Positions 6,394 to 56,602 of a stretch of DNA of 64,000 nucleotides are shown here, piece by piece. The notes under the pieces were generated by a model. That model was not told the origin of the DNA. It saw nothing but the letters and a program-made list of their open reading frames with translations, and made no database searches. Made by a program: the position numbers and the translations under genes. Positions within the stretch are counted from its first letter, which is position 1, and each line of letters opens with the position of its first letter. This DNA is from Megasphaera hutchinsoni (GTDB lineage Bacteria; Bacillota; Negativicutes; Veillonellales; Megasphaeraceae): positions 79,700 through 143,699 of the forward strand of contig NZ_KQ960941.1 of NCBI RefSeq assembly GCF_001553405.1, written 5' to 3'.

Positions 6394-9255
6394 ATGGCAG
6401 AAGAATATATTACGATTAAAGGTGCCCGACAGCATAATTTAAAAAACATAGATATTCGTATTCCTAGAGATAAACTTATTGTATTTACAGGATTGTCTGG
6501 TTCGGGAAAGTCGTCGTTAGCGTTTGATACGATTTATGCAGAAGGTCAGCGACGATATGTCGAATCTCTTTCGGCGTATGCACGTCAATTTTTAGGACAA
6601 ATGGATAAGCCTGATGTAGATTATATTGAAGGATTATCACCAGCAATTGCTATTGATCAAAAGACAACCAGTCGCAATCCTCGTTCGACCGTGGGTACTG
6701 TAACGGAAATATATGATTATTTACGGTTGTTATATGCTCGTATAGGAGAAGCGTTTTGTCCCAAATGTCATAAACCGATTACCCAACAGACCATTCAACA
6801 GATGGCTGATAACATAATGAAGATGCCTGCAGGGAGTAAAATCATGATTATGGCTCCTGTTGTTGAGGGGCGTAAAGGAATGCATCAAAAGACATTTACT
6901 CATCTTATTAAGGAAGGGTATGTGCGAGTTCGGGTAGATGGAGAAGTATATATGCTATCTGAGGATATTCCTTTAGAGAAAAATAAGAAGCATACGATTG
7001 AAGTCATTATCGATAGGTTAGTAATGAAGGATACCATTTTATCACGTTTAACCGATTCACTGGAAACGGCGGCAAAATTGAGTAATGGTTTAGTGCGTGT
7101 GTTGGACATGGCTACGCAGCAGGTACAAGTGTATAGTCAATATTTTGCATGCCCTACTTGTCATATTAGTTTACCTGAAATTGAACCCCATTTATTTTCT
7201 TTTAATAGTCCTTTTGGGGCATGTCCAGCTTGTTCGGGTATAGGTAGCACGATGGAAGCGGATGAAAAATTAATTATTCCAGACACGCATGTGCCTTTTT
7301 CAGAAGGTGCCGTAGCGGCGTTAAGTAGTAATCCGAACTCATGGTTTATGCGTCAGTTAGGGGGTTTTTTAACTGCACAAGGAGCAGATATAAATCAGTC
7401 ATTAGCAGATTTGACGCCAGAAGTACAAGCCAAGTTATGGTGGGGGACGGAAGAAACATGTGAATTTGAATATGAAAACATGCGGGGGGAATCAAAAACT
7501 TTTGCTGTTCCTTTTGAAGGTGTTATTCCTATGGTACGGAGACGATATCAAGAAGCGTCAACGGATATGATGCGCGAACAGTTTGCCGAGTTTATGCGGA
7601 TTAAACCATGTGGTACATGCAATGGTGCCAGATTAAGACCGGAGGCTTTAGCGATTCGCATTGGGGGATTAAACATATATGAAATGACTAAATTATCTAT
7701 CGCTGAAATGATTTTGTTTTTTCAAAAGCTTACGTTAACTTCTCGCCAAAAAATAATTGGTAAGCAAATTTTGAAAGAAATAGCATCACGGTTATATTTT
7801 TTGCAAACGGTTGGCTTAGAATATCTAACCTTAGCACGCAGAGCCGGAACCTTATCGGGGGGAGAATCGCAGCGGATTCGTTTGGCAACACAAATCGGTT
7901 CTGCTTTGGTGGGTGTTTTATATATATTAGATGAACCTTCGATTGGGTTACATCAACGAGATAATAGCAAATTATTAGAAGCGTTGTGTCATTTGCGCGA
8001 TATCGGGAATACCCTTATTGTAGTAGAACATGATGAAGATACGATGTATACAGCTGATTGGTTGGTAGATATTGGTCCAGCTGCAGGTAACCAGGGGGGG
8101 ATGGTGGTTGCTCAAGGACCGATTGCGAATATTATGGAATGTAACGAGTCATATACGGGTCAATATTTGAGTGGCAAGAAATATATTCCTTTGCCCTTAA
8201 AACGACGTAAGGGCAAGGGACATGAGATTGTTGTGCACGGTGCGGCCGAACATAATTTAAAAAATATTGATGTAGCATTTCCTTTGGGTGTGCTAACTGT
8301 TGTTACGGGTGTGTCTGGATCGGGAAAATCAACCTTGGTGAATGAAATATTATATAAGGGAATGGCAGAAGCCATATATGGTACGCTACATCGAGCAGGA
8401 AAATTTTTAGCATTGGATGGGGCTGAATATATTGATAAAGTAATTAATATAGATCAGTCCCCTATTGGGAGAACGCCGCGGTCTAATCCGGTAACGTATA
8501 CGGGTGTGTTTGATTCTATTCGTCAGTTATTCAGTCAAACCGCGGAGGCTAAGGTTAGAGGATATGCGGCAGGACGCTTTAGTTTTAATGTTAAAGGTGG
8601 ACGGTGCGAAGCTTGTCGGGGTGATGGCATCATTCGGATTGAAATGAATTTTTTACCTGATGTATATGTGCCTTGCGAAGTATGTCATGGTGCTAGATAT
8701 AATCGAGAAACGTTAGAAGTAAAATATAAAGGGAAAACAATTTCTGATGTATTACATATGACTGTTGCCGAAGCGTGCGAATTTTTTTCAGCGATACCGC
8801 GGATTGTTAATAAATTGAAAACATTACAAGACGTAGGTTTAGGCTACATTCAGTTGGGACAATCCGCAACAACGTTGTCAGGTGGGGAAGCACAACGGAT
8901 CAAATTAGCTTCAGAATTATCTAAACGAAGCACAGGAAAAACGTTGTATATATTAGATGAACCAACAACGGGTTTACATACAGCCGACATACATAAGTTA
9001 CTAGAAGTATTACAATTATTAGTTGATAGTGGTAATACGGTAGTGGTTATTGAACATAATTTGGATGTTATAAAAGTAGCCGATCATATTATTGATTTAG
9101 GACCGGAAGGTGGAGATGGTGGTGGAACGATTGTCGCTATTGGTACGCCTGAAGAAATTTGTAATGTTTCGGCTTCTTATACAGGACAATTTTTGAAACC
9201 TGTCTTAGAAAAGACGAAGAAACGTATGCAAGGAGAAGGTAAATATGTTGAGTGA
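6394..9255 (+). CDS. uvrA: excinuclease ABC subunit A
   Basis: Damage-sensing ABC ATPase of excision repair; the 953 residues are full length. Both nucleotide sites are intact: Walker [10 protein letters not shown] near residue 32 and GVSGSGKST near 640, with signatures [11 protein letters not shown] and [11 protein letters not shown] and Walker [11 protein letters not shown] and [10 protein letters not shown]. Zinc modules are visible as [12 protein letters not shown]...[13 protein letters not shown], and CEAC...[10 protein letters not shown]. It lies 28 bases after uvrB with an AAGGAG site, and its end overlaps the uvrC start by 11 bases, so translation of the two is probably coupled. Confidence 0.98.
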
Positions 9256-24391: not shown

Positions 24392-24952
24392 GTGCGTACT
24401 TTTTTACATGAAGTATATGAGTGGTTGTATTCCATTGTTATTGCCTTAGCCATTGCCTTGGTAATTCATATCTTTTTTGTCCAACCAACACGTGTTTCCG
24501 GTGAATCAATGGTACCCACGTTACATAATGGAGAGTATTTGCTGGTAGCTAAATGGCCACATATTTTTAAACAGATGCCACAATATGGACAAATTGTGAT
24601 TATTGATAGTCGTGTGGCTTATCAACGTACATGGAAAGATGATGCGGCGGAACCGATGCATAATTATTTTGCTTTCTTTAATGCGAATTTACAAACGCAC
24701 CATGTCTGGGTAAAGCGAGTGATTGGTTTACCTGGTGACACCTTGGCTTTTCGTGAGGGAAAAGTTTGGCGCAATGGCAAACCGCTGACGGAAACATATA
24801 TTAATGAGCCTATGGAATACACCAGTTCCAAAGAAATACGGATACCGGAAGGTTATGTATTTTGCATGGGTGATAATCGAAATCATAGCAGTGATTCACG
24901 CTATATTGGACCCGTTCCTTTGGATCATGTCCTGGGACGAGTTATTTGGTAA
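24392..24952 (+). CDS. lepB: signal peptidase I
   Basis: Membrane-anchored serine protease that removes signal peptides from exported proteins. One N-terminal membrane segment (SIVIALAIALVIHIFFV) is followed by the catalytic Ser in SGESMVPTL (near residue 38) and the general-base Lys in VKRVIGLPGDT, then GDNRNHSSDSRYIGPV. The 186 residues are typical of Gram-positive-type SipS. The start is GTG at 24392 with GGAGGG five bases upstream; a TTG just before is possible. Confidence 0.94.
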   Translation: MRTFLHEVYEWLYSIVIALAIALVIHIFFVQPTRVSGESMVPTLHNGEYLLVAKWPHIFKQMPQYGQIVIIDSRVAYQRTWKDDAAEPMHNYFAFFNANLQTHHVWVKRVIGLPGDTLAFREGKVWRNGKPLTETYINEPMEYTSSKEIRIPEGYVFCMGDNRNHSSDSRYIGPVPLDHVLGRVIW

Positions 24953-24957
24953 TTTTA

Positions 24958-25002
24958 CGTAGACAGTTCGCAATCCATCCTGTCGTTAAATAAAACTAGG
25001 AA
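24958..25002 (+). promoter_or_regulatory. preQ1-I riboswitch
   Basis: GACAG (24962-24966) and CTGTC (24980-24984) form the short stem around the conserved TTCGCAATCCATC loop. The A-rich tail ends in AAAACTAGGA, the classic preQ1-I pseudoknot arrangement. It lies upstream of the queuosine-precursor genes queT-queF and directly before an intrinsic terminator, so it is likely a transcriptional OFF switch when preQ1 is abundant. Confidence 0.9.
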
Positions 25003-25024
25003 CATCGTAAACGATACGCATTGT

Positions 25025-25061
25025 TGATGGATGAAAAGCTATTTTCATCCATCATTTTTTT
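25025..25061 (+). terminator. riboswitch-controlled terminator
   Basis: GATGGATGAAAA and TTTTCATCCATC form a perfect 12-bp stem around GCTA, followed by a run of T. It sits between the preQ1 aptamer and the queT ribosome binding site, as an expression platform should. Confidence 0.9.
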
Positions 25062-25076
25062 TAGGAGGTGACGCTT

Positions 25077-25574
25077 ATGTATTCATTTTGGTCTAGTTCG
25101 CGACGATTAACTATATCAGCGATGGTAATAGCTGCTTATTTGGCTATCATATTTTTTACAGCAGGTATTTCTTTTGGTGCATATCAAATTCGGATTGCCA
25201 CAGCATTGTATGCATTAGCGTATTGTTTTCCCTTCCTAGTTATTCCGATGGGAATTGCTAATTTTTTTGCCAACTTATTATTTGGTGGGTTAGGTATAAT
25301 TGATATGATAGGGGGAAGTTTGGTCGGAATGATCGTAACTTTTTTACTGGTGCAAATTAAAATACGTACCTTGCCGATTTGGTTTGCTTTTTTTCCGATT
25401 GTACTTGTGCCGGCTTTGGGTGTGGGTTTATGGTTAGCACCCTTATTGCATATACCTTATACTGCTGTGGTGAGTAGCATCGCTATTGGGCAAATTATTC
25501 CGGCGGGAATAGGCGTATTTTTTATTCATACATTTATACGGTATAAATATATTTTTATAAAGGAGAACATATGA
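25077..25574 (+). CDS. queT: queuosine precursor transporter QueT
   Basis: Small integral membrane substrate-binding (S) component of an ECF-type transporter that imports queuosine precursors. The 165 residues contain about five to six hydrophobic segments ([35 protein letters not shown], and [15 protein letters not shown]). The preQ1 riboswitch upstream and overlap with queF support the assignment over other ECF S components. Start at 25077 with TTAGGAGGTG upstream; a GTG at 25068 is less likely because it overlaps the ribosome binding site. Confidence 0.92.
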
Positions 25575-26065
25575 GTCGAACAAAACAAGAATTACAAGGC
25601 ATTACGACCTTGGGAAAACAACAAACTCAGTATAGCACAACCTATGATCCGACCCAGCTGGAAACATTTGTGAATAAACATCCTGAGCATGATTATTTTG
25701 TGAAATTTAATTGTCCTGAATTTACTAGTTTATGCCCTAAAACAGGACAACCCGATTATGCTACGCTTTATATATCTTACGTTCCTTGTGAACGCATGGT
25801 GGAAAGTAAATCATTAAAATTATATTTGTTTAGCTTTCGGAACCATGGGGATTTTCATGAAGATTGTGTAAATATCATTATGAACGATCTTATTTCGTTA
25901 ATGGATCCCAAATATATTGAAGTATGGGGTAAATTTTTACCGCGGGGGGGCATTAGTATTGATCCTTTTTGTAATTATGGGAAAAAAGGTACTCCGTGGG
26001 AACAAGTTGCATGGAAACGCTTATCTGAGCATGATATGTATCCAGAGATAGTTAATAATAGATAG
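25571..26065 (+). CDS. queF: NADPH-dependent 7-cyano-7-deazaguanine reductase
   Basis: Unimodular type I QueF (164 residues) reducing preQ0 to preQ1 in queuosine synthesis; tunnelling-fold enzyme of the GTP cyclohydrolase I superfamily. The catalytic Cys is in [12 protein letters not shown] near residue 56, and the family signature [21 protein letters not shown] follows, with the Glu and His that bind the substrate. Overlaps queT by four bases. queC, queD and queE are not adjacent, so preQ0 may be made elsewhere or salvaged through QueT. Confidence 0.96.
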
Positions 26066-26119
26066 GGGTTTAGTTGTTATAAGAAATAATTGGGTTTGCT
26101 TTTTCGGTAGGATATATAT

Positions 26120-26156
26120 AAACGGTGTATCTTGTGAAGATACACCGTTTTTTCTT
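26120..26156 (+). terminator. queT-queF terminator
   Basis: AAACGGTGTATCTT and AAGATACACCGTTT form a near-perfect stem with a GTG loop, then a T run. Confidence 0.92.
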
Positions 26157-26282
26157 GTTTATGCGTTTTTTTTGCCTGGTGAGAAAAATAAGTAAATACA
26201 AAATGATATTGTTTATCTATATTATATAGGCGTATTATATAATTAATGGTATACTTAGTATATAAATAAGGTAGGTGAGAAA

Positions 26283-27092
26283 ATGACAGAAATGAAGTTA
26301 GCTTTGCTCAAAGAGCAAGCTTTTTCAGGTGATGCCCGAAAACAATGTGAAGTAGGGGATTATTATTTTTTTAGTAATCGTGAAGACAATTTGAAGTGGG
26401 CTTTATATTGGTATAGTCATGCGGCAAAACAAGGTGATGCGGCAGGCCAGTATAATTTAGCTTATCAATATGAACATGGCATGGGTGTGCCTGTGGATAA
26501 ACAAAAAGCCTTTTATTGGTATCGCTGTGCAGCTGAACAGGGATATGGGGCTGCTGAAAATGGAATTGGTGATTTTTATCATTATCCTGGAAGTATTCCG
26601 ACTAATGTATGTATTGCCGGGTATTGGTATCATCGTGCTGCTCAACATGGCGATTCAAATGGGCAATGCAATTATGGAATTATGCTTCAATTTGGTGAAT
26701 TAGGATATGTTGATTATAAAAGAGCTAGTTATTGGTATAGCAAAGCCGTACAACAAGAACACTTGCGAGCTACGAATAATTTGGGCTTTTTATATGAACA
26801 TGGGTTGGGCGTAGAGATAGATGAAATAAAAGCGGCTAATTTATATACGAAAGCCGCTATCGGTGGAGATGGAATGGCTCAAAATAATTTGGGTAAATTG
26901 TATCGCCGTGGTGGTGGTGTAGAAAAGAACTTAAGGGAAGCCGCTTACTGGTTTGCCCAATCGGCACTTTCTGATTATGACGAGGGAATTCGTAATTATG
27001 TTCGGGCGTTAGAACATGGTGAAGGCATTGAAAAGGATATGGTGGAAGCTGCGTTTTGGCGAGAAAAATTAATTATGAATCGATGGAAATAA
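26283..27092 (+). CDS. Sel1-like repeat protein
   Basis: A 269-residue protein made of about six Sel1-type helical hairpins of 36 residues (for example ALYWYSHAAKQGDAAGQYNLA, YEHGMGVPVDKQKAFYWYR, YEHGLGVEIDEIKAANLY). Sel1 arrays are TPR-like scaffolds for protein-protein contacts. There is no signal peptide or membrane segment, so it should be cytosolic. No partner can be inferred from the neighbours. A second, larger Sel1 protein lies at 39222. It shares a convergent terminator with the next gene. Confidence 0.88.
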   Translation: MTEMKLALLKEQAFSGDARKQCEVGDYYFFSNREDNLKWALYWYSHAAKQGDAAGQYNLAYQYEHGMGVPVDKQKAFYWYRCAAEQGYGAAENGIGDFYHYPGSIPTNVCIAGYWYHRAAQHGDSNGQCNYGIMLQFGELGYVDYKRASYWYSKAVQQEHLRATNNLGFLYEHGLGVEIDEIKAANLYTKAAIGGDGMAQNNLGKLYRRGGGVEKNLREAAYWFAQSALSDYDEGIRNYVRALEHGEGIEKDMVEAAFWREKLIMNRWK

Positions 27093-27093
27093 A

Positions 27094-27134
27094 AGAAAAA
27101 AACGATGTAACTACGGTTACATCGTTTTTTTCTT
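27094..27134. terminator. bidirectional terminator
   Basis: AACGATGTAAC and GTTACATCGTT pair around TACG, with A-rich sequence before and a T run after. It serves both the Sel1 gene and the convergent oxidoreductase gene. Confidence 0.92.
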
Positions 27135-28646
27135 TTATTTCTTTTCATAGTAGTAACGCGTCCACATGGTTAACTCGGACAATGCTGGATGAGGCGTCAT
27201 CGTTTCGCTAAGTGTATAGACTGAACGTGGCGGTAAATGCCTTGTTAGAGGTAAGGCACGTAGCTTTTTTGTAATATCGGAACAAATATCCGGTTCGGAT
27301 ATCTGTAGATGCTGACGACCGCAATAGAATAAATTGCAGAAAGGTTGAATTAAGATAGACGCTTCAACGCCTACAATATGTACACCGAGGATTTTTTTCT
27401 GTTTGCTATCAATGACGAGTTTTACAAAACCATCATCACTGGCATTTGGCATAAAGCCTAAGGCATATCCTTTGGCGGTAGAAGAATAATGATTGATAGC
27501 TATTTCTACTTCGTAACCTGCATTGCGAGCGGCTTTTTCATTCATGCCGATATGTGCTGCTTCAGGGTAGGTGTATGTTACGGCCGGTATGGCATCATAG
27601 CGTACCCAACGCCATTCTTCAGGTGCTTTATTAGAAAATAAATTATGTGCGAGTGTTTCGGCTTCATAATTGGCTTTATGGCGAAATGGTGCTTTCCCAT
27701 TAATATCACCTAATGCCCAAATACCAGGTGCCGTTGTTTCTAAGAATTCATTCGTACGAATATAACCGCGTTTATCTAGTTGTACATGTGTATTTTCGAG
27801 ATGAAGTAATTCTGTCATTGGTTTAATACCAGGTGCTACAAGAATTTCTTCGGCCCGTACTGTCGTTATTTCACCACTCGTGCGATCTGAACAAGTTACT
27901 ACCTTTTCGCCATTTTCCATTTCTACCGATAAGGTATCTTGGTTTAGACGAACGTCGATTCCGTACTGTTGAAATTGTGTTAGCATATGTGCGGATACGG
28001 CTTCATCTTCTTTGGGGAGTAAGCGTACATTATGTTGTACGACTGTTACTTTTGTCCCTAATGCATTAAATACATGAGCAAATTCACAGCCAATAGGCCC
28101 GCCACCGAGAATGATTAAACTTTTGTATGGTTTTTGGGGATAGGCATCGCCAAAAAAGGTTTCCGATGTAAGATAACCAACATCGTTTAGACCTTCCACG
28201 GCAGGAATATTTGTGCGACCGCCGGTGGCAATAAAGATAGATGTACCCGTTATACGTTCAGTGGTTTCGTTTTCATAGGTGATAGTGATGGTTTTATCGT
28301 CTGTAAAAGAAGCTGTTCCTTGATAGGTGGTGACATGAGGAAAGGCGTCATAGTAGGTGCGAATTTCATCACTTTCTTGTATTTTGTGCCAAAGCCGCTT
28401 GCTGAGTAAGTCCCAATCAACAGTTATTTTTTCTGTATAAATGCCAAGTCGTGCGGATTCAGCCATCTCACGGATGCGATTAGCTGCGGTAACGAGTATT
28501 TTAGTAGGGATACAGCCACGATTTAAACAGGTTCCACCAAAGCGACCTCGTTCAATGATAGCGACACTTTTCCCGCCGGCAATAGCTGCATCGGCGATGA
28601 TATTGGCAGCACCGGTGCCAATAATAATGACATCATATTGTTTCAT
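27135..28646 (-). CDS. FAD-dependent pyridine nucleotide-disulfide oxidoreductase
   Basis: Flavoprotein of the dihydrolipoamide dehydrogenase/mercuric reductase/mycothione reductase family, 503 residues. It has an N-terminal FAD site (VIIIGTGAANIIADAAIAGG), the redox pair CLNRGC followed by IPTK, the NAD(P) site ILGGGPIGCEFA, the second FAD motif GIWALGDINGKAP, and the C-terminal HPALSE holding the His-Glu base. The physiological disulfide cannot be named; no 2-oxoacid dehydrogenase or glycine-cleavage genes are nearby, which argues against a plain lpd role. Strong ribosome binding site (GGAGG read on the minus strand). Divergent from the TonB receptor gene. Confidence 0.88.
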   Translation of the reverse strand: MKQYDVIIIGTGAANIIADAAIAGGKSVAIIERGRFGGTCLNRGCIPTKILVTAANRIREMAESARLGIYTEKITVDWDLLSKRLWHKIQESDEIRTYYDAFPHVTTYQGTASFTDDKTITITYENETTERITGTSIFIATGGRTNIPAVEGLNDVGYLTSETFFGDAYPQKPYKSLIILGGGPIGCEFAHVFNALGTKVTVVQHNVRLLPKEDEAVSAHMLTQFQQYGIDVRLNQDTLSVEMENGEKVVTCSDRTSGEITTVRAEEILVAPGIKPMTELLHLENTHVQLDKRGYIRTNEFLETTAPGIWALGDINGKAPFRHKANYEAETLAHNLFSNKAPEEWRWVRYDAIPAVTYTYPEAAHIGMNEKAARNAGYEVEIAINHYSSTAKGYALGFMPNASDDGFVKLVIDSKQKKILGVHIVGVEASILIQPFCNLFYCGRQHLQISEPDICSDITKKLRALPLTRHLPPRSVYTLSETMTPHPALSELTMWTRYYYEKK

Positions 28647-28808
28647 TGTATATATCCTCCATTGATGTATTGTTCGTGTTTTTAGTATACGTTGGTTTGG
28701 CTTTTTTTACAAGAAGCCTTATTTTTTCAGTTAATATATTATAGTTGATAAATTTGTATCCAAAATATAAAAAAATGTCGGATTGGATTATTTTATGTCC
28801 GAATGGAG

Positions 28809-28837
28809 TAGAAAAAGTACTCGGGGGGGGGTATATT
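28809..28837 (+). promoter_or_regulatory. TonB-receptor promoter containing a G9 tract
   Basis: A run of nine G (28823-28831) directly abuts TATATT (28832-28837), a good -10 element 45 bases before the start codon of the receptor gene. The tract lies where the -35/-10 spacer would be; the -35 candidate TAGAAA (28809-28814) is weak. Length changes by slipped-strand mispairing would alter spacer length and promoter strength. Confidence 0.55.
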
Positions 28838-28882
28838 AAAAAGGAAAATAAGAATAATATCATAATGGAGAGAGGGGAGTAT

Positions 28883-31189
28883 ATGAGAAAACATATATGG
28901 GCAGCCGTTATGGCCGCTATATTCAGTACAACTGTATCAAGTATATATGTACAGGCGGAAAGTACTTATTTGACGGATAATGTGGTGGTACGAGCGGAAA
29001 ATGCACGTGCGAGGGCGAAAAAGCGTCCCGAAACGGTAACCATTATTACGAAGCAGGATATGAAAGAGAAAAAAATGCAAGATTTGCGGAATGTTTTGGA
29101 AGTGGTTCCGGGCGTTTCTTTCTCTGTCGATGGCATGAATCGCTCTGATTATTCTATTCGCGGTGCCGCCAGTCGGCATTGCCCGATTTTTGTTGATGGT
29201 CTTAAAGAAGCGGGCGAATATAGTAAGCTCATGGGTGCCGCCAATGAAATGGAACGGTTTTCGACTCATAATATGGCCCGGGTTGAAGTGGTGCGCGGCG
29301 TATCGGGAGCCCGATACGGTTCCGATGCGGTAGGCGGTGCCATTCGTATTGTTACGAAACGACCGGTTAAAACAAACGCTTACTTTGATTATGAATATCG
29401 GGTAGTGGCTCACGATAAAAACGATGAATATACCTATCGCTTGGGTATGGATATGGTAGGAAAACGAATGCAGGCACAAGTATCGGTGGCCGATAATACT
29501 ACGGCTCCCTATTATAATTGGCAGTATGCGGATTATAATTTACCCTATATGACAGATAAAAATTTCCCTGATGTTAAAACCATGGATACGGCTCATTGGC
29601 CGAAGAATCATACGTTTATTCAAGATAATTTCAGCGGTTCGCGTCGCCATTTAGAAGGACGGTTATTTTTTCAACCGACATCGCGTACGGAAGTCATGTA
29701 TGGGTTTCATCGCCTGAATGACGATACGAGGACGTCTGAGTTTTTAGGGCACTATTCTTTTGAATGGTGGCTTAGAGGGGATTGGCCCGAAGCATTAACA
29801 GAAAAAAATAAGGGTTTCTTTTATACGGAGTATATGGATATAGCTAATCATATTCAACGGGATACTAACCAAGGATATATTTCGTACGGTTGGAATACAG
29901 GCGATATAAAATTGCGGGTGAAAGATTCGCACTATGGTAAGTTGACGAATACGTATTTAAATACTACTTTTCTGAAAAATAAGTCGTCCGATTGGCTGGA
30001 AAGCGGCGATCGCTCTTATGATATGGAATTAAACTGGTATGGGAATCCCAAACATTCGATTACCGTAACCGCACAACGGAAAAAATCGTACGGCATAGGA
30101 ACCCGTCTGCGTACCACTAATGAAGCGGGAAGTTTTAAGTATCACTATTGGGAATATAATGCTTGGGGTTACGGTGACGGTATTTGGGAAACGACAGAAA
30201 AAAAACAGCTTTATCGCGCGGATATGGAGGAATGGAACGCGGCTATTACCGACACGTATACACCTAATGATAAAATAACCGTTGTGCCCACTTTGCGATA
30301 TACGCATCATACGACAGGGCATAGACCGACCGTCGGGTTAGGTATTATTTATAAAAGTGATGACCGGACGAAAATAAAGGTAAATGTCGGGACAGGGTTT
30401 TCTACGCCCGGCATGATGGAAATGTATCATCACTTTATGATGAAACCGTTTACTCCTATTACAGAAGATGGGGTGGTAACGGATTGTTATCAGGACTTTA
30501 AAGATAAAAATGGTAACTCACAAAGAGTATATTTTTATCCTGGCTGGTATTTTCAAGGAAATCCTGCCTTAATACCGGAAAAAGCTTTGGGGTTTGATAT
30601 ATCTCTGGAAAAAGAATATACTCATGGACAAGGACGACTTACGGCATTTTATAATCATATTACCGATTATCTTAATTTGTATTACACCTTAAAAAAATTA
30701 GAAGTAGATCCGGATGATCCTTTAACAAATTTAAATGATACGCGGATTTACAGTTATAGCAATCTCAAACGGGTGACGTTGGCCGGTGTGGAAGCGGAAT
30801 ATACGCATCGGTTTGATAAGCATTGGAGCCTTACTGCATCGGCAACGTATTTACATGCAGTCGATGATAGTACGGGAAAACGTCTGACGATGAAACCGTT
30901 ATGGAAATATATTTATTCGCTGAATTACAAAAATAAGGCATGGCATGGAACATTATGGGGAGAATATAATACAAATTATATCGATATTTTTGACCGCAAA
31001 CACATCAAGTTTGAACGTATTGAAGAAGGGTATGAAAAGAATTACGGTATTGCCAACCTGTTGATAGAACGACAGGTGACACCGTCACTTTCGTATTACT
31101 TCGGCGTTAATAATCTCTTCCATTATCAATCGACCAGTTTAAATATTCGCGGTCGTATATTCCGTATAGGAGGGAGTTTGCAATTTTAA
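28883..31189 (+). CDS. TonB-dependent outer membrane receptor
   Basis: Outer-membrane active transporter energised by TonB, 768 residues. A signal peptide (MRKHIWAAVMAAIFSTTVSS, cleaved near VQA-ES) is followed by a TonB-box-like region, the plug domain (RPETVTIITKQDMKEKKMQD, VVPGVSFSVDG, ARVEVVRGVSGARYGSDAVG) and a 22-strand barrel ending in the aromatic RGRIFRIGGSLQF, the usual C-terminal insertion signal. The ligand is likely an iron chelate, haem or cobalamin, but cannot be chosen. Start at 28883 is set by AGAGGGGAG and the signal peptide; an upstream in-frame ATG is within the promoter. GC and codon use are a little higher than neighbours, so it may have been acquired. Confidence 0.92.
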   Translation: MRKHIWAAVMAAIFSTTVSSIYVQAESTYLTDNVVVRAENARARAKKRPETVTIITKQDMKEKKMQDLRNVLEVVPGVSFSVDGMNRSDYSIRGAASRHCPIFVDGLKEAGEYSKLMGAANEMERFSTHNMARVEVVRGVSGARYGSDAVGGAIRIVTKRPVKTNAYFDYEYRVVAHDKNDEYTYRLGMDMVGKRMQAQVSVADNTTAPYYNWQYADYNLPYMTDKNFPDVKTMDTAHWPKNHTFIQDNFSGSRRHLEGRLFFQPTSRTEVMYGFHRLNDDTRTSEFLGHYSFEWWLRGDWPEALTEKNKGFFYTEYMDIANHIQRDTNQGYISYGWNTGDIKLRVKDSHYGKLTNTYLNTTFLKNKSSDWLESGDRSYDMELNWYGNPKHSITVTAQRKKSYGIGTRLRTTNEAGSFKYHYWEYNAWGYGDGIWETTEKKQLYRADMEEWNAAITDTYTPNDKITVVPTLRYTHHTTGHRPTVGLGIIYKSDDRTKIKVNVGTGFSTPGMMEMYHHFMMKPFTPITEDGVVTDCYQDFKDKNGNSQRVYFYPGWYFQGNPALIPEKALGFDISLEKEYTHGQGRLTAFYNHITDYLNLYYTLKKLEVDPDDPLTNLNDTRIYSYSNLKRVTLAGVEAEYTHRFDKHWSLTASATYLHAVDDSTGKRLTMKPLWKYIYSLNYKNKAWHGTLWGEYNTNYIDIFDRKHIKFERIEEGYEKNYGIANLLIERQVTPSLSYYFGVNNLFHYQSTSLNIRGRIFRIGGSLQF

Positions 31190-31219
31190 TGCGTTCGGGT
31201 GAAAGAAAGGAAAAGTTTC

Positions 31220-31337
31220 TTTACAGATATAGACGAATATAGTATAATATCTAGTGTCGTACGGGTACTCGGTGTTACGCTTTCTCCAGCGCATACTTAG
31301 TGCTTTGCGAATGACGATATATTAGGAGGAATGCTAT
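31220..31337 (+). promoter_or_regulatory. rpsO promoter and 5' leader
   Basis: TTTACA (31220-31225), a 17-base spacer and TATAAT (31243-31248) make a strong promoter. It is followed by a roughly 85-base leader with a hairpin CGCT-TTCTCC-AGCG and further possible pairing to the region near the ribosome binding site AGGAGG. S15 leaders are autoregulatory in many bacteria; here that is inferred. Confidence 0.65.
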
Positions 31338-31604
31338 ATGTTAAGTGTTGAAGCAAAAAAAGATATTATTGCTAAATTTGGTAAGAATGAAGCAGATACG
31401 GGATCTCCGGAAGTACAAATCGCGTTACTTACGAGCCGTATTTTGTATTTAACAGAACATTTACGGAGTCACAAAAAGGATCACGCATCTCGTCGGGGTT
31501 TATTAAAATTAGTTGGGCAACGTCGTAACTTGCTTAGCTATTTACAAAAACATAACTTGGAACGGTATCGTGCAATTCTTGAAAAATTGAACTTACGTAA
31601 ATAA
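31338..31604 (+). CDS. rpsO: 30S ribosomal protein S15
   Basis: Early-assembling protein of the 30S platform. The 88 residues match family length exactly, with the conserved [35 protein letters not shown] and [12 protein letters not shown] that contact 16S rRNA. Linked upstream of pnp, the universal rpsO-pnp pairing, but separated from it by a terminator and a long hairpin. Confidence 0.98.
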
Positions 31605-31616
31605 TTTGCACACTGG

Positions 31617-31648
31617 GAGGCTGATGTGGATGCATCAGCCTCTTTTTT
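31617..31648 (+). terminator. rpsO terminator
   Basis: GAGGCTGATG and CATCAGCCTC form a perfect 10-bp stem with a TGGATG loop, followed by TTTTTT. Confidence 0.93.
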
Positions 31649-31656
31649 AAAAGGGG

Positions 31657-31724
31657 TACAGGGTGGCAGGTAGTATGATGATGACGTAATACACGTACTT
31701 ATCATAGTGCCTGACACCTGTGCA
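31657..31724 (+). promoter_or_regulatory. long hairpin in the pnp leader
   Basis: ACAGGGTG, CAGG and TATGAT on the left arm (31659-31678) pair in register with ATCATA, CCTG and CACCTGT on the right arm (31701-31721), giving an imperfect stem of about 20 bp just before the pnp ribosome binding site. In E. coli a comparable pnp leader hairpin is cut by RNase III and then used by PNPase to limit its own synthesis. A similar role here is inferred. Confidence 0.55.
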
Positions 31725-31746
31725 GAAAATGTATAGGAGGATGAGT

Positions 31747-33894
31747 ATGGAAGAAAAGAAGTTTCATATGGAGTTTGCCGGTAGACCGCTTACGGTAGAA
31801 GTCGGCAAATTAGCTAAACAGGCGAGTGGTGCCGCATTGGTTCGGTACGGTGATACAGCTGTATTTGTGACTGCAACGGGATCTAAGGATGCTCGAGAAG
31901 ATGCAGATTTTTTCCCGCTTACAGTAGATTATGAAGAAAAAATGTATTCCGTAGGTAAGATTCCCGGCGGATTTATTAAAAGGGAAGGAAAACCGCCTGA
32001 ATCAGCGACCTTATTTGCACGGTTAATCGATCGTCCCATTCGTCCATTATTTCCCAAAACCTATCGCCATGATGTACATGTCGTTGCATACGATTTTTGT
32101 GTAGACCATGACAATGCTCCGGAAATTGCTGCTATGATTGGTGCATCTGTAGCTTTGAGTATGTCCCATATTCCTTTTGCCGGACCTATTGCAGGGGTGC
32201 GGGTAGGACGAGTTGATGGTACTTTTGTTATTAATCCAACGGTAGCACAAAGTGAAAAGAGCGATATGGATATTGTGGTTGCCGGTACGAAGGATGCTAT
32301 TTTAATGGTTGAAGGGGGCGCTAAACAAGTTCCCGAAGCAGATATGTTAGATGCTATCATGGCTGCTCATGAAGAAATTAAAAAGGTAATTGCTTTTCAA
32401 GAAAGTTTCTTAGATGAAATTAGTGTGCCCAAACAGGAATTTGTAGAAGTAGAACCGCCCATTGATATGGTAGAAGCAATTCATGCGTATGGCGAAACCG
32501 CCATGAAAGAAGCCGTATTTACATCGGATAAAATGGCGCGGGAAGAAAAGATGAATGCCGTAGAAACGGATATTTATGATCATTTTGCAGACATCTATCC
32601 GGAAGATATGTCTACGGTTGGAGTAATTACACAAAAGATGATCAAAGAAATTGTTCGCCATATGATTGCTGTCGATAAAATTCGTCCGGATGGGCGTAAG
32701 GTCAATGAAGTGCGTCCTGTAAGTTGTGAAGTGGGCTTATTTGCACGTACACATGGTACGGGGTTATTCACGCGTGGACAAACACAAATTTTGAGTTTTG
32801 CGACGTTAGCTCCGCTTTCTGAATCACAGCATATTGATGGCGTGGGGATGGAAACAGATCGTCGTTATATGCATCATTATAATTTTCCTTCTTTTAGTGT
32901 AGGTGAAACGAAGTCATCCCGTGGACCGGGACGCAGGGAAATTGGTCATGGTAAACTGGCAGAACGAGCATTAACGCAAGTATTGCCGACGGAAGAAGAA
33001 TTTCCTTATGCTATTCGGGTTGTATCGGAAGTATTAGAATCGAATGGTTCCAGTTCTATGGGTAGTGTGTGCGGTAGTACATTGGCCTTAATGGATGCAG
33101 GTGTGCCGTTACAAGCACCCGTATCAGGTGTAGCGATGGGACTCGTTACGAAAGGCGACGATTTTACGATTTTAACGGATATTCAAGGTATGGAAGATGC
33201 CCTTGGCGATATGGATTTCAAGGTAGCTGGTACGATGAAAGGGGTAACAGCTATTCAGATGGATATAAAAATCAAAGGCCTTCGCAGGGAAATTTTGGAA
33301 CAAGCTTTACAGCAAGCACATGAAGGACGTATCCATATTATGGAAAAAATGCTGGCAGCTATTCAGCAGCCGCGAGAAGAATTGTCGCCTTATGCACCGC
33401 GAATTATTACGCTACATATTCATCCGGATAAAATTCGTGATGTCATTGGACCGGGGGGCAAGATGATCAAACAGATAACGGAAGAAACGGGAGCTAAAAT
33501 AGATATTGACGACTCCGGATTAATTTATATTGCTTCTGTTGATGCAGCCGGTGGCAATAAGGCAAAAACATGGATTGAAAATCTGACAAAAGACGTTGAA
33601 GTAGGCGAAGTTTATGAAGGAAAGGTAACGCGTATTATGAACTTCGGTGCTTTTGTAGAAATATTGCCTGGAAAAGAAGGGATGGTACATATTTCTCAGC
33701 TTGCACCGGAACGAGTTGAAAAGGTGGAAGATGTCGTTCAGGTGGGAGATGAAATTGTCGTTAAATGTATCGAAATCGACGACCAGGGGCGTGTTAATTT
33801 ATCAAGAAAAGTCTTGTTAACGGGCGATACATCCGATGGACGGTCTCATCAGAAACGCCGTTCAGGGCATCGTCCCAATGGAATGAGGAAATGA
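31747..33894 (+). CDS. pnp: polyribonucleotide nucleotidyltransferase (PNPase)
   Basis: Trimeric phosphorolytic 3'-5' exoribonuclease of mRNA turnover. The 715 residues contain two RNase PH-like domains (first ending near residue 220; second with [13 protein letters not shown] and [13 protein letters not shown] and the catalytic [10 protein letters not shown]), an alpha-helical linker, a KH domain ([20 protein letters not shown], around residue 565) and an S1 domain ([20 protein letters not shown]). The ATG at 31747 sits six bases after AGGAGG; the ATG at 31741 touches that site and is less likely. Overlaps dut by four bases. Confidence 0.97.
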
Positions 33895-48703: not shown

Positions 48704-49165
48704 CTTAAAAAACCCCCTTTTTGAAAAAACTTAACTGTTTTCGTCCTTATTAACACCTTTTTCGATTGCGTTTAACTCTATTAACTATAGGCTAGAGATT
48801 GAAAGATACGAGGCATGAAAATCGTTAAAGACTTTTATACATATTCTACCAAAAAAGTTTTATTTTTAATAGGCAGAACTAAAGGAAAAAGAGGCGTATC
48901 GAAAGTCTTTTGATGCAAAAGCGTTCTTGTTCTTTTCAAACTTGAGGCATCAGCCTCAAATAGTCTACACGAATATGTCTCTTGATCAAAGACTGATTCG
49001 GTATTCGTGTAGAAAAACTAAATAAGTACAGCGGTCTTACCGAATAAGGCAGCTGCAAGTCAAGATGAAGGAATTCTTCATTCTAGCTTGTGGTGTTTTG
49101 TTATGCCTTATTTGAGCTGAATTTAAGAAATTCCTTCATCGGAAATCGAATGGAGGAATTTTTTT
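48704..49165 (+). ncRNA. structured leader / possible noncoding RNA before the first prophage gene
   Basis: This 462-base gap separates the minus-strand defence operon from the plus-strand prophage genes. From 48942 onward it is densely structured: TTGAGGC-ATCA-GCCTCAA (48942-48959); a long hairpin with arms CTACACGAATA (48965-48975) and TATTCGTGTAG (49002-49012) and inner TTGATCAA; AATAAGGCA (49043-49051) with TGCCTTATT (49104-49112). GATGAAGGAATTCTT (49064-49078) can form a local hairpin or pair with AAGAAATTCCTTCATC (49125-49140), i.e. two exclusive states just before the ribosome binding site. It could be a switching leader or a stable RNA. No known class recognised. The left part should hold the defence-operon promoter, which I cannot place. 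Confidence 0.45.
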
Positions 49166-56501: not shown

Positions 56502-56602
56502 CCCCGGAGGGGGGGGAGTGTTATCTCTACAGGGGTAACAATTCCAAGCCGAGGCGGGGTCACACGCGCAAAAAAAGCGTAATCAAAGGGGGTATTTAGG
56601 GC

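Follow-up and report, generated by a model that had tools for sequence, protein, structure and literature searches.

What does a run of nine G residues do in the putative promoter of an outer-membrane receptor gene of Megasphaera hutchinsoni? An earlier note on this DNA had read the run as a candidate phase-variable spacer between the -35 and -10 hexamers. To answer this, we analyzed a window of 64,000 nucleotides (G000:C17:79700-143699) together with the genome to which it belongs (G000; 1,565,222 bases in 32 contigs). The elements of the locus are as follows:

28771-28886, + strand: regulatory block of 116 bp, comprising operator, G9 spacer, -10, leader, ribosome-binding site and start codon
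28777-28812, + strand: tandem operator with half-sites GTCGGATTGGATTA and GTCCGAATGGAGTA, 20 bp apart; putative AraC-family activator site
28809-28814, + strand: -35-like hexamer TAGAAA, overlapping the end of the operator (promoter scan)
28823-28831, + strand: G9 tract in the -35/-10 spacer (sequence and G-run scan)
28832-28837, + strand: -10 hexamer TATATT, 22 bp past the operator GGAGT (promoter scan, operator spacing)
28883-31189, + strand: TonB-dependent receptor of 768 amino acids, plug and barrel (Pfam PF07715, E 2e-20; PF00593, E 1e-27)

The G9 run directly abuts TATATT, and 45 bases lead from TATATT to the receptor ATG at 28883, just as the earlier note had described. TAGAAA is a weak match to a -35 hexamer; paired with TATATT at a 17-bp spacing, it gives 9 of 12 matches in the promoter scan. 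A homopolymer between -35 and -10 is the arrangement of the FetA/PorA-type switch, and here the G9 run lies inside the 17-bp spacer. No RNA element at the tract is among those listed for positions 26000 to 32000 of the window.

The gene behind this promoter is of the kind on which promoter-spacer phase variation acts, namely, one for a surface protein. The best NCBIfam matches of the receptor are haem-, haemoglobin- and transferrin-type receptors, all below the curated cutoffs. Both the purine-rich Shine-Dalgarno region and the signal peptide, which is normal, fit the ATG at 28883. Downstream of the receptor, before a large open reading frame at 31720, there is a subthreshold match to the ribosomal S15 leader (31284-31391; 36.7 bits against a gathering score of 39.5), and elsewhere in the window a DUF2800 RNA motif was found at 48964-49123 (89 bits).

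The G9 run is the longest G run in the window, as previously noted: the others on the + strand are three of seven (at 8094, 25944 and 41840) and one of eight (at 56509), and no run of seven or more C residues occurs on that strand. We considered whether length by itself sets the tract apart and rejected length as evidence, since G9 is not in excess over a first-order Markov model. For the window, this model predicts 0.34 runs of at least nine G on the + strand. Across the genome, about 17 such runs are expected and 2 were found, and for runs of at least seven the figures are about 225 and 35 (42 pattern matches, made up of 30 runs of seven, three of eight and two of nine); long G runs are thus underrepresented. 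Position gives a different answer. The only two G9 runs in the 1.565-Mb genome both sit in operator promoters, which are two copies of one block. The probability of nine G residues in a given 22-bp spacer is about 7e-5, or about 5e-4 over the 7 operator promoters. We conclude that the tract is beyond chance by position and not by length.

The initial part of the block is also present upstream of other genes. Its half-sites have the form GTCNNAATGGAGTA and are 20 bp apart (21 in a few sites). A degenerate pattern, with as many as 3 mismatches allowed, matched 7 operator sites in the genome, and a reversed-pattern control found none there at the same stringency. Six of the sites precede genes: the window receptor, a porin-receptor pair on contig C5, TonB-receptor-like genes on C16 and C28 (twice), and exbB/exbD on C31. 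The seventh, on C2, lies just behind an AraC-family gene, has no gene start within 400 bases and is followed about 0.5 kb further on by an SLH-domain gene. The AraC-family gene of C2 occupies positions 24572 to 25540 of that contig, on the minus strand. With at most 1 mismatch, 7 of 61 genomes in the order carry the operator, all from one genus (Megasphaera in the broad GTDB sense), and all 7 encode a close AraC-family protein (E <1e-100). The AraC-family gene ends 12 to 315 bases upstream of an operator in six of them, namely, G000, M. micronuciformis F0359 (G005), G010, M. cerevisiae DSM 20462 (G011), G013 and Anaeroglobus geminatus F0357 (G014); in G004, very probably Colibacter massiliensis, it is about 1.7 kb from an operator. 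The presence of the protein is not diagnostic by itself, because it also occurs (E <1e-20) in 30 genomes that have no site at this stringency. The arrangement is that of an AraC-activated promoter, with tandem direct repeats 20 bp apart abutting the -35 region and a regulator gene nearby in 6 of 7 genomes. Judging from the position of the regulator gene, an AraC-type activator most likely binds the operator.

The distance from the operator to the -10 hexamer is tightly constrained. Measured from GGAGT in the second half-site, it is exactly 22 bases in all seven sites of the genome. Genus-wide, we compared 31 distinct 28-base stretches downstream of operators; these counts omit operators with GGAGG or GGAAT (e.g., L159 and L169), which fall outside the pattern, and, like the open-frame counts below, a Nitrospirota match (L207) that does not match it. 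TANNNT stands at 22 in 25 of the 31 stretches and at 23 in the other 6, with none at 20 or 21; three stretches have an extra TANNNT at 24. A run of at least six G is found in one of the 31, which is the stretch shared by the two tract promoters, and among the 60 other genomes of the order no operator promoter has a spacer run of at least seven G. The operator and the fixed 22-bp distance strongly support the earlier assignment of TATATT as the -10 and of the tract to the -35/-10 spacer.

The same data bear on a translational switch, in which an upstream start (ATG at 28775 or TTG at 28745) would be read in frame through the G9 run (as GlyGlyGly) into the receptor, so that changes in the tract would frameshift a longer product. 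The frame is indeed open from 28745 through the receptor, a similar frame is open at the C5 copy, and congeners do use coding tracts. However, the frame from the operator stays open for at least 100 codons in only 2 of the 31 distinct sites, that of the window included, and so is not conserved; a transcription start past the tract, near 28844, is predicted from the -10 distance; and ATG 28883 already has its own signal peptide and Shine-Dalgarno region. We consider a translational switch at this locus very improbable.

We propose instead that the G9 run is probably the variable part of an activator-dependent promoter switch of the FetA type, as suggested by the promoter anatomy and by analogy. 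An AraC-family activator of a TonB-uptake regulon would bind the tandem operator abutting the -35 region, and RNA polymerase would meet the -10, whose distance from the operator is fixed at 22 bp. Since nine of the 22 spacer bases are the G run, a slipped G would shift the -10 relative to the activator, and the window promoter is at the canonical distance only because its run is nine long. Slipped-strand mispairing at the run would change both the 22-bp distance and the 17-bp -35/-10 gap by one base at a step, and receptor expression would move between levels, or on and off, with tract length. Because the operator-to--10 distance is fixed across the regulon, a direct prediction follows from the anatomy: G9, giving the canonical 22 bp, should be the on state, and G8 and G11 should be weak. 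G10, giving 23 bp, may remain functional, as that distance is found at 6 of the 31 distinct genus sites.

The whole block recurs on contig C5, identical at 115 of 116 positions (one mismatch), whereas the flanks on both sides are only 19 to 33% identical. There it precedes an SLH-domain porin-like gene, directly followed by a gene for a TonB receptor 46% identical to that of the window. Just upstream of this second copy, at C5:57633-60512, lie two tandem genes with autotransporter barrels. The tract is G9 in both copies, although the assembly could have averaged the two, because a 116-bp repeat is close to the length of a short read. The equal lengths are compatible with recent copying, with selection for the on state and with a tract that is static. 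Since each tract could slip on its own, they either say nothing about a very fast switch or count slightly against it.

Two further readings concern a tract of constant length. In the first, the promoter is real and the G-rich spacer is static, having expanded by chance and been copied with the block to a second locus, with no switching at a useful rate. The identical G9 within near-identical blocks suits this reading, as does the fact that five of the seven operator promoters of the genome have no tract at all; in addition, a run of nine is rather short for fast slippage. Against it, the genome has few long G runs, but the two longest of them both fall in operator promoters, and sister species clearly differ in poly-G length within the same receptor class (see below). 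We regard a static spacer as unlikely, though as an alternative to be taken seriously. In the second, the tract is bound or structured (by G-rich stacking or altered bending) and sets promoter strength with no change in length. Long G runs can adopt unusual structures, and the tract belongs to the copied block, but a quadruplex motif consists of four G runs, whereas the tract is one, and the other 30 distinct operator sites have no G run in the spacer. We give this reading very little weight. A search for this promoter with a tract of variable length returned 0 matches in genome_contigs and 0 in viral_contigs, collections from which the own genome or very near genomes may be absent, so that the result is uninformative on strains.

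In the relatives, poly-G length at receptor genes does change. M. cerevisiae, Colibacter massiliensis and Anaeroglobus geminatus have operator-driven TonB receptors with a run of G6 to G13 close to the signal peptide or immediately after it, at 15 loci with a readable start:

Coding poly-G receptor loci: L153, L158, L162, L163, L165, L166, L171-L173, L176, L178, L179, L183, L184, L187

These 15 leave aside three loci without a start and one from another genome of the genus (G006), which is not a TonB receptor; no on/off state was assigned to M. cerevisiae tracts at contig ends (C122, C149 and C159). The tract is in frame with the receptor in 4 of the 15 and out of frame in 11 (in frame: 1 of 6 in M. 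cerevisiae, 0 of 4 in Colibacter and 3 of 5 in Anaeroglobus). Paralogues of M. cerevisiae with near-identical flanks have 10, 11, 12 and 13 Gs. This is the picture expected of translational phase variation, although some of the Colibacter loci with G6 to G8, none of which is in frame, may be decayed genes or have wrongly chosen starts. The coding tracts of these relatives show that poly-G length at receptor genes changes in this lineage, and by analogy within the genus they support slippage-type variation as a prediction for the window tract. We set aside G14 runs of M. micronuciformis (L228 and L229), which adjoin runs of N and are probable assembly artefacts. Eight M. cerevisiae contigs (C132, C135, C145, C149, C156, C158, C159 and C181) stop about 100 to 250 bases past an operator, at or before the G run; the 5' ends of the receptor genes in this species seem to be repeats that break assembly.

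Tracts of other kinds occur in G006, which has no operator. Near position 1507 of L235, upstream of an exported-protein gene, a G11 run separates TTGACA from TATATT at an 18-bp spacing; this is a second promoter-spacer tract in the genus. G006 also has runs of G9 to G11 inside short leader open reading frames, with a hairpin-plus-T stretch between each leader and the exported-protein gene downstream. In seven of these leaders, which are related to each other and are not independent cases, the frame passes the hairpin with G10 and stops before it at the two neighboring tract lengths tested:

L231 and L242: G9 and G11 stop before the hairpin
L232, L233, L234 and L237: G11 and G12 stop before the hairpin
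L243: G8 and G9 stop before the hairpin

For L234, a separately located hairpin was used and not the one picked in the tract-length comparison. A similar leader in M. cerevisiae (L226) passes its hairpin with G13 and not with G12 or G14. On sequence, the leader tracts suggest tract-controlled terminator read-through, possibly an attenuation switch.

The porA and opc promoters of Neisseria have a homopolymer between the -35 and -10 of a gene for an outer-membrane protein. Unlike the window gene, these are porin and adhesin genes, and we know of no AraC operator at either; tract variation is proven for them and predicted for the window promoter. The closer likeness is to fetA (frpB) of Neisseria gonorrhoeae, a phase-variable TonB-dependent receptor gene in which, according to the relevant passages of PMC6965322, the length of a promoter C run changes the -10/-35 distance. 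The activator of fetA is MpeR (PMC9147433), which is termed AraC-like in a title cited in PMC6965322. The window gene differs in belonging to an unrelated phylum, in having G and not C and in its operator, and length variation is known for fetA, whereas the window tract is known from its anatomy. Going by that anatomy, the view that the window promoter would work like fetA is well supported, with membership of the class incomplete, as variable length and expression define it. The HpuAB and HmbR haemoglobin receptors of Neisseria, also TonB receptors, undergo slipped-strand phase variation (PMC6965322, same passages). They are comparable to the coding tracts of M. cerevisiae, Colibacter and Anaeroglobus; unlike theirs, the window tract is in the promoter and not in the gene. 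Among the titles and abstract openings listed for Megasphaera, Veillonella and Negativicutes with phase variation, homopolymeric tracts or TonB, none describes a poly-G switch in this group; one paper describes a Megasphaera inverton, the mechanism of which differs from poly-G slippage.

The earlier proposal of phase variation is therefore borne out in part: the promoter placement is strongly supported, slippage-type variation is supported by analogy with the genus, and the equal tracts of the two copies do not speak for very fast switching. The sharply bounded 116-bp block, copied as a unit with its G9 run before an unrelated outer-membrane gene, also raises the possibility of a portable switch cassette. 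On this tentative view, which we hold with less confidence than the switch itself, the organism would spread a slippage-tunable, activator-dependent promoter among surface-protein loci, and relatives would instead use poly-G inside receptor genes or leader open reading frames.

If the G9 run is the variable part of a promoter switch, phase variation of TonB receptors through the promoter spacer, as known from Neisseria, would have arisen separately in diderm Firmicutes (Negativicutes), and it would sit on an AraC-type uptake regulon, whose tract-free sister promoters offer natural controls for the model. With the coding and leader tracts of the relatives added, the Megasphaera group would then offer a setting in which kinds of poly-G switch can be compared.
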